From positions 248,001-312,000 of the forward strand of contig OZ020255.1 in NCBI GenBank assembly GCA_963971285.1: 64,000 bases of DNA. The letters run 5' to 3'. Source of the stretch: Astropecten irregularis (lineage: Eukaryota; Echinodermata; Asteroidea; Paxillosida; Astropectinidae). The notes under the pieces were generated by a model. That model did no database searches. It was not told the origin of the DNA and saw nothing but the letters and a program-made list of their open reading frames with translations. The translations under genes and the position numbers were made by a program. Below, piece by piece: positions 8,214 through 11,200 of the stretch; the stretch's first letter is position 1; every line of letters begins with the position of its first letter.

Positions 8214-11200
8214 GCTGTACATGACAAGTCAATAAGTGAGAGTGTACTGTATCTATGCATTGCATTACTGGATATGATGCTACAATATCAACCACACTCT
8301 GTCAAATCAAAGGTAACAACTCATCACAAAGTTTGAAAATGTCTCCAATGTTTTTATTTCTTAAAGGTAATATCATAGTTTGGTTTATGTCAAAGAAATA
8401 CAGATTCATGGGCAATAATATCAAGGAAGATACAGTAACAGCCATTCGTGAAATTTTCTGTCCCATTATACGGTGCCCTTTTTTGAGAAAACTGTCATCT
8501 TTTCACCATTATTTTTAGTCATTGGTTTGATTCTTTTCTGGATAAATACATCATTTCACTGAAATGCTGTTTCAGGCAGAAACTTTTTGATGGTATGTTT
8601 CTACCATCGCATTCTTTATATCTCTAAGTTATGGGTAAATCTGTGAAGACTTCTGTTTCAGTATGCTACCAAAGGATGATACGACCTTTAATGTTTATTT
8701 ACCTTATTGGTTTCAATTGATTGTTAATAAGTTTCTATATATAGTGTCACCAATTCTCAAAGAGTCTTTATTAAAGACAGCTATAATAGGTTTCATGAAA
8801 CTCTTTATGCACATGGACAACTATCTGTGAGCACTGTGCAATGGTTGTGCCATTGCATGAGTAGAATGCAGACCCAGTGTGTAATGGTCCAAATGAAAAG
8901 TAGCATACAGTAAGCAGTATATGTCCATCACCAAGGAATTATTTGGGACCTGTTTGTTTCAGGCAAGTGATCAGTGATCTTGCAGATCCACGTCCCATGC
9001 AGGATATGCTAAAATGGGACTCGGAGCAGCAGGATCACTGATCTCATGCCTGAAACAAACAGGCCCTCTGATCACTGGAATCTAGATTTTTAGTGAAGTG
9101 CATTATCAGTTGGATCAGTAATGGAGATATGAACGTGTGTTTAAATGCATATACCTGTATAGACCAGGAGCCAATTTCACGGTGCTGCTTAGCACAAAAA
9201 TTTGCTAAGCATGACATTTCTGCCTTGATAAAAACAGGGTTAACAGCCAAATTTCCATGTGTTGTGTATCGCTTGTGATTGTTCTCTGGCTGTTGTTCAC
9301 TGACCATGAATATCAAATGGAATTTTTAGCGGTAGTTTGTTTTATTGGGCAAGACATTTTTGTGCTAAGCACATTTTTGTACTTAGCAGCTCCATGAAAT
9401 TTGCCCCAGGTTGCTATTGGTCCAGATGGAGGCAGCCATGATGGAGCATCCTTATTGTTAATCCCATATGTAACAATGAATTCTCACTTGTATGATAATC
9501 TTTCTCTTTTATGGTGGTTAGTGTGTGGTTTCATGGCTTCTGACTGCCAAAGGAACAATGATAATTGACTATTTGGGACACCACCAATGTAGGGCTGAAT
9601 AGTTCCGTTGGTAGAGCGCCTCTATGGTATTCAGGAGGTTGCCAGTTCGAATTCCACTCCGGTGAATTTTTCCTTGTTCACTTTTCAATGACTTTCTCTT
9701 TTATGTTATAGATTGTGACATCTGATGTTGTACAGGATGGTGATTTCTCAGCCATGTTTCCAGATAACTCCATACTAACTAACATGGGACATCGCATTAA
9801 CACAGTTGAGATGCCTACAGTCGCTGTGTGTGAAAAACTAGCAACATCCAGTCAGGTATTAAATAGACCATTTCATTCCGTCATTTTTAGAGCCATATTG
9901 CTAGGAAGTGTCAATGATATATTGTACCAGGACTGGATGTAAACTTTACAGAAGCAACATCTATAGATGAATTAATGCCTCACAGTTCCTTGGATGTTGC
10001 TTCTATGCCCCTAGTTGCCCCTATTAATTGCCTTGGTGCCCCTGGTCATTGCCTTGGTGCCCCGGGTCATTGCCTTGGTGCCCCTATTCATTGCCTTGGT
10101 GCCCCTGGTCATTGCCCTGGTGCCCCTGGTCATTGCATTGGTGCCCCTGGTCATTACCTTGGTGTCCCTGGTCATTGCCTTGGTGCCCCTGGTCATTGCC
10201 TTGGTGTCCCTGGTCATTGCCTTGGTGTCCCTGGTCATTGCCTTGGTGTCTCTGGTCATTGCCTTGGTTTCCCTGGTCATTGCCTTGGTGCCCCTGGTCA
10301 TTGCCTTGGTGCCCCTGGTCATTGCCTTGGTGCCCCTGGTCATTGCCTTGGTGCCCCTGGTCATTGCCTTGGTGTCCCTGGTCATTGCCTTGGTGTCCCT
10401 GGTCATTGCCTTGGTGTCTCTGGTCATTGCCTTGGTTTCCCTGGTCATTGCCTTGGTGCCCCTGGTCATTGTCTTGGTGCCCCTGGTCATTGCCTTGGTG
10501 CCCCTGGTCATTGCCTTGGTGTCCCTGGTCATTGCCTTGGTGCCCCTGGTCATTGTCTTGGTGCCCCTGGTCATTGCCTTGGTGCCCTTGACCATTGCCT
10601 TGGTGTCCCTGGTCATTGCCTTGGTGTCCCTGGTCATTGCCTTGATGCCCCTAATCATTGTCTTGGTGCCCCTGGTCATTGTCTTGGTGTCCCTGATCAT
10701 TGCCTTGGTGTCCCTGGTCATTGTCTTGGTGTCCCTGGTCATTGCCTTGGTGCCCCTGGTCATTGTCTTGGTGCCCCTGGTCATTACCTTGGTGTCCCTG
10801 GTCATTGTCTTGGTGTCCCTGGTCATTGCCTTGGTGCCCCTGGTCATTGTCTTGGTGCCCCTGGTCATTACCTTGGTGTCCCTGGTCATTGCCTTGGTGC
10901 CCCTGGTCATTGCCTTGGTGTCCCTGATCATTGTCTTGGTGTCCCTGGTCATTGTCTTGGTGTCCCTGGTCATTGCCTTGGTGCCCCTGGTCATTGCCTT
11001 GATGCCCCTAATCATTGTCTTGGTGCCCCTGGTCATTGTCTTGGTGTCCCTGGTCATTGTCTTGGTGTCCCTGGTCATTGCCTTGGTGCCCCTGGTCATT
11101 GTCTTGGTGTCCCTGGTCATTGCCTTGGTGTCCCTGGTCATTGTCTTGGTGTCCCTGGTCATTGCCTTGGTGCCCCTGGTCATTGCCTTGATGTCCCTGA

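Follow-up and report, generated by a model that had tools for sequence, protein, structure and literature searches.

When a retroposon inserts directly beside an exon, is the exon still spliced as before, and which sequence then serves as its branch point? This question is raised by a UBR-family gene of Astropecten irregularis in a window of 64,000 nucleotides (the whole stretch of DNA analysed here, C19:248001-312000 of the host genome), in which a SINE lies immediately upstream of the acceptor of an internal exon at 9712-9855. A SINE beside an acceptor is an instance of an already known kind of event. For example, in canine HCRTR2 narcolepsy a SINE close upstream of an exon acceptor causes exon skipping; that element is likewise near the acceptor, but the exon is skipped there. 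For the present locus, we consider it likely that the element was inserted by target-primed reverse transcription, that its tail provides the branch point, and that splicing into the exon still occurs at 9711. Positions below are those of the window, and the gene, its splice signals and the insert all lie on the plus strand.

Host gene and exon model

The domains of the host gene extend beyond the window. About 16.6 kb ahead of the window, at C19:231299-231451, there is a zf-UBR match over the cut-off, and two matches over the cut-off to PRT6_C, the C-terminus of the UBR family, are located at 26567-26797 (where the six-frame match contains one TGA) and at 28933-29082, both assigned to the same gene. 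The joined exon pieces at about 17.2 and 17.9 kb matched PDB chains of UBR1 (E = 0.00033 and 0.0036) and UBR2 (E = 0.029), and these matches of the RING region outrank those of other RING proteins; none of the Pfam RING models gave a match over the cut-off. The zf-UBR, RING and PRT6_C parts are ordered along one strand, as in a UBR-type ligase, which suggests a single transcript. If the pieces form one gene, it is a UBR-type E3 ligase spanning about 46 kb.

The original prediction had named the gene UBR3. Membership of the UBR family stands, on the zf-UBR and PRT6_C matches and the UBR1-like RING region; the choice of UBR3 over UBR1 or UBR2, which we take to be likely, comes from sequence motifs. 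A search for ClpS matched only contig C152 and likewise missed a UBR-type locus on contig C8, so it discriminates poorly between UBR3 and UBR1/2. The match on C152 (C152:53767-53997, L057) is itself strong and uninterrupted, and is possibly bacterial sequence in the assembly. A literature search for UBR3 together with SINE found nothing related.

The exon beside the insert had also been called exon 2. Because the UBR box is already encoded upstream of the window, it is instead an internal exon. It comprises 144 nt (48 codons) in phase 0-0, is open, and is in frame with the next exon at 11459-11740 (282 nt, phase 0-0), which was placed by sequence and translation. On the upstream side, a scan for an acceptor, a donor and an open frame gave three candidates that passed the cut-offs, the best of which is 8214-8312 (99 nt, phase 0 at the donor, encoding a 33-residue peptide). 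In this model the intron runs from 8313 to 9711 and is 1399 nt long, or 1207 nt without the insert and one repeat copy. The donor of the internal exon (CAG/GTATTA) scores 3.37, which is under the cut-off of 5 used in the upstream scan. Neither the exon peptide nor the joined exon peptides matched any PDB entry, and Pfam searches with the exon peptide gave nothing over the cut-off (CpG_bind_C reached E = 0.23 in one search), so it is by frame, phase and splice signals that 9712-9855 is taken to be an exon.

Other repetitive sequences surround these exons. The intron that holds the SINE also contains two inverted-repeat pairs (8946-9066 and 9186-9371), possibly other elements, and the intron directly 3′ of the exon contains a minisatellite of about 21 bp at 9918-11315, with reading frames open for more than 460 codons. 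Farther along the window, 46900-64000 is occupied by repeats, each about 4 kb long, that have open frames for a transporter-like protein, and the one copy tested (54880-55764) matched Pfam MFS_1 at E = 8.8e-21.

A dispersed family of tRNA-containing elements

The 178-bp insert at 9514-9691, which is in sense orientation to the gene, belongs to a dispersed family. At least 44 further matches with 82-91% identity were found on many contigs of the 475.7-Mb genome (168 contigs); this is a lower bound, with 40 scored among 5272 candidates, and the 44 include partial matches that are neighbours of one another. For the alignment, 39 stretches with 50 BLAST hits were fetched; after removal of 8 partial hits, the other 42 were aligned with the window copy. 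Two of these, L018 and L033, have common flanks and are possibly duplicates of each other. The family sequence extends 5′ of the window copy and the start points vary among copies, so the window copy is 5′-truncated.

At the other side, the window copy and 14 of the 42 others share a short 3′ end, departing from the family at CAATGA(CTT) or a few bases from it. These are L010, L015, L016, L021 (copy at 454-285), L024, L025, L026, L032, L039, L041, L043, L044, L045 and L046, as counted by eye in the alignments. L035 (267-87), which was left out of this count, also leaves the family, but apparently continues into a copy of its tail in inverted orientation. The remaining copies, including L028, L030, L013, L018 and L033, run on by alignment into a longer form.

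Of the 178 positions of the window copy, 22 depart from the family majority, and 12 of these differences are states found in at most 3 of the 42 copies; the insertion is therefore not very recent, and the exon frame and acceptor are intact despite this. Divergence among the other copies ranges from 0.6 to 8.4%, in a search-selected set that offers no fair age comparison with the window copy.

A tRNA component is evident at the level of the family. ARAGORN reported a 73-nt tRNA-Thr(GGT) in five of eight family loci, the three without a tRNA being the window copy (L001), L002 and L005, and Rfam gave tRNA matches in four of five family loci tested (best 58.8 bits), with none in the window copy at E up to 0.1. 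When the position is carried over from L004, a degenerate tRNA-Thr-like segment falls at about 9593-9665 of the insert. Dispersed copies, a tRNA segment at family level and duplications of variable length are all as in a tRNA-derived SINE. The tRNA part, however, is not at the 5′ head: longer copies have a 5′ extension, and the tRNA lies towards the 3′ end. Many copies are also arranged in tandem or inverted, unlike a simple SINE. "SINE" is hence used here as a fair working name, short of full classification, and the predicted tRNA-derived SINE finds its support as a dispersed, tRNA-containing, SINE-like family.

The arrangement of the copies deserves a description of its own. L004, L021 and L042 are head-to-tail, and L025, L035, L039 and L046 are inverted, forming near-palindromes around GTCAGTTTCCCTTGTGGTTATTT; such near-palindromic and tandem architecture is unusual for a SINE family. 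Within the window, more family copies occur at 340-579, 35381-35456 and 50389-50700, with similar stretches at 54361-54674 and 58339-58652, and several of the copies in the window are inverted pairs in which a minus copy is followed by a plus copy. ARAGORN placed a tRNA-Thr on the minus strand at 370-442, inside the copy at 340-579.

The target-site duplication

The insert is bracketed by two exact copies of CTTTCTCTTTTATG, at 9500-9513 and 9692-9705, in agreement with the original prediction. Among the window matches to this sequence that were listed, only two others occur, each with 2 mismatches. Could the pair be a chance match, with no target duplication at all? The repeat is pyrimidine-rich, and 8 of its 14 bases could also come from the element. 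But in 2000 dinucleotide shuffles of 8900-9900 the flanks never shared a 14-mer (at least 10 bp were shared in 2 shuffles and at least 8 bp in 33), and four other family copies have equal geometry. The match listing and the shuffle control led us to discard chance as the reading of this pair, and we find it hardly credible.

Exact direct repeats 14 bp or longer, spaced 120-400 bp apart, were also listed for the window. Once the 1-kb bins dense in them (tandem arrays) are set aside, four isolated pairs remain, one of which is the CTTTCTCTTTTATG pair. The other three pairs (32343/32495, 37501/37666 and 40812/40952, with a spacing of 140-165 bp) are possible duplications around other insertions.

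The extent of the duplication can be counted in two ways. The family majority is matched at 9510-9513 (TATG) at the 5′ junction and at 9692-9695 (CTTT) at the 3′ junction, that is, by the last four bases of the left copy and the first four of the right copy, and these bases can be assigned to either the element or the target. The duplication is therefore 14 bp in appearance and 6 bp (CTCTTT) in the strict sense. Microhomology at such insertion junctions is usual.

Flanking direct repeats were also found at four other short-ended copies, L016 (12 bp), L025 (11 bp), L026 (10 bp, of low complexity) and L045 (9 bp), where they start at the short 3′ end or one base past it. At L024, L032, L039 and L021, matches of 8-10 bp lie 2-7 bases further out, some of them overlapping element sequence. 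A convincing adjacent repeat is absent at 10 of the 14 short-ended copies, and six of these gave no match whatever. Both the repeat lengths and the 5′ ends vary, which is consistent with target-primed reverse transcription, and target-primed retroposition is well supported as the probable origin of the 178-bp insert.

It is important to note that the identity of the two repeat copies is not used here as proof of selection. This argument was dropped, since 14 identical bases are not unlikely where selection is absent: at a private divergence of about 7% (12/178), the expectation is 0.93^14 = 0.36 for one unchanged copy and 0.93^28 = 0.13 for both.

The acceptor and its candidate branch points

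The right repeat copy at 9692-9705 provides a strong acceptor with its pyrimidine tract. The AG of this acceptor, at 9710-9711, scores 8.07 and ranks 43 among the 3541 AGs of the window. The scores are rough, being derived from a generic 3′ splice-site matrix with approximate frequencies; the acceptor of the next exon ranks 6, and a guessed acceptor at 11942, for the exon after next, ranks 617 of 3541. Both the predicted AG and the predicted role of the right copy agree with these results.

The last 20 nt before the exon, ctttctcttttatgttatag (tract, spacer and AG), are identical in the filled site and in the empty site obtained by joining the flanks. It had been predicted that the target duplication kept the splice site. 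What holds is that the exon-side tract was kept; "rescue" overstates it, since an insertion that duplicates its target leaves a full copy on each side, and retention of the tract is automatic. The second pyrimidine tract, in the left copy, now lies 192 nt upstream and can at most compete.

The branch point is a different matter. The original branch-point region at 9480-9499, delimited by motif scan only, contains CTCAC (A9486), ATGAT (A9495) and ATAAT (A9498), which in the joined-flank empty site stand 34, 25 and 22 nt before the exon. In the filled site, a motif scan of the element tail at 9677-9692 finds TTCAC (A9680) and ATGAC (A9691), which lie 32 and 21 nt upstream of the exon, in line with the proposal that the tail supplies branch-point candidates. 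No AG occurs between 9645 and the acceptor at 9710, and pyrimidines make up 35 of the 48 nt before the AG, versus 30 of 48 in the empty site. At the level of motifs, the filled site has what a U2-type 3′ splice site needs, namely a branch motif within 18-45 nt, a tract and an uninterrupted AG. Such motifs are common: YTNAY is found 18-45 nt upstream of 1407 of 3191 AGs (44%), and YTNAY or TNAY upstream of 2194 (69%), so a usable one is likely by chance and its presence is weak evidence.

Splicing at 9711 might instead still depend on the original branch point, now 214-226 nt upstream. Distant branch points are known in principle, but nine AGs, including those at 9521, 9552 and 9634, stand between the old branch region and 9711, and such dependence is in our view very improbable.

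The course of events that we favour is as follows. A tRNA-Thr-related SINE would have inserted in sense orientation, via target-primed reverse transcription, in the acceptor region of the internal exon. The duplication would have spanned the pyrimidine tract, leaving the 20 nt adjoining the exon as before, and the branch-point region alone would have been displaced, by 192 nt. The pyrimidine-rich tail, with its TTCAC and ATGAC, most likely took over the branch point, and splicing would still occur at 9711. We infer the insertion and its order, the use of the tail as branch point and the normal inclusion of the exon from the DNA sequence.

Alternative splicing outcomes

The insertion may also have weakened the acceptor, so that the exon is partly skipped or alternative. 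With 144 nt in phase 0-0, its skipping would preserve the frame, and the loss of 48 residues with no frameshift could be tolerable. Partial skipping is further favoured by the low donor score of 3.37 and by mammalian data: SINEs of human and mouse are scarcer than expected within 100 bp of exons, and among the 30 full-length human AluY elements that lie within 20 bp of an exon, 3 sit at the acceptor side (PMC3088655). On the other hand, the acceptor has a high rank (43 of 3541) and branch motifs stand at normal distances from it. Partial skipping seems to us unlikely, while deserving some weight.

A further outcome is partial exonisation of the SINE, in which the left repeat copy and an AG inside the insert (that at 9521 or at 9634) would form a competing upstream acceptor. 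The AG at 9520-9521 lies 8 nt past the left tract, the original branch motifs are 24-36 nt before 9522, and few family members share its A at 9520 (2 of the 42 others); it is a possible weak competitor, but ranks only 986 of 3541, with a score of 2.45. The best cryptic AG within the insert, at 9633-9634 (TATTCAG) in the tRNA-like segment, scores 6.16 versus 8.07 for 9711. In canine merle, a cryptic site within the SINE is used (PMC7349775). Against exonisation in the present gene, a stop interrupts every one of the three extensions read (from 9521, 9552 and 9634), in the phase-0 frame of the upstream exon as well as in that of the exon itself, where a TAG occupies 9709-9711. Truncated products would result, and selection should favour 9711. 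We regard exonisation as improbable, and splicing at 9711 remains the favoured outcome.

Comparison with known insertions and implications

The closest comparison is canine merle, in which a tRNA-derived SINE with a 15-bp duplication lies at the boundary of PMEL17 intron 10 and exon 11 (PMC7349775). That case resembles the present one in having a tRNA-derived SINE at an acceptor, a target duplication and the original acceptor beside the exon (PMC7349775). The differences are that the merle SINE is reverse-oriented, whereas the present element is sense; that its poly-T lengthens the distance from branch point to AG, whereas the present tail has no long homopolymer; and that its cryptic site causes a phenotype, whereas the present exon is open (PMC7349775). 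Like the rare survivors among mammalian elements, the present element lies about 20 bp from the acceptor, although the statistics of PMC3088655 are for mammals and the present case is one locus in another animal genome. By this analogy, the insertion looks like a surviving member of the rare near-exon class, in another animal.

Whether the 3′ tail of the family is pre-adapted as acceptor-proximal sequence, being pyrimidine-rich with TTCAC and ATGAC and without AG, is a tempting idea that we consider doubtful. If it were so, short-ended sense insertions near exons would replace the branch point without loss, and such insertions may outlast other elements near exons more often. In short, the locus is a natural experiment in which all that precedes the final 20 nt of the intron was apparently exchanged for a SINE in one step, and the exon stayed open. 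It bears on whether the tail of a retroposon can act as a branch point in vivo; the case alone fits known principles.
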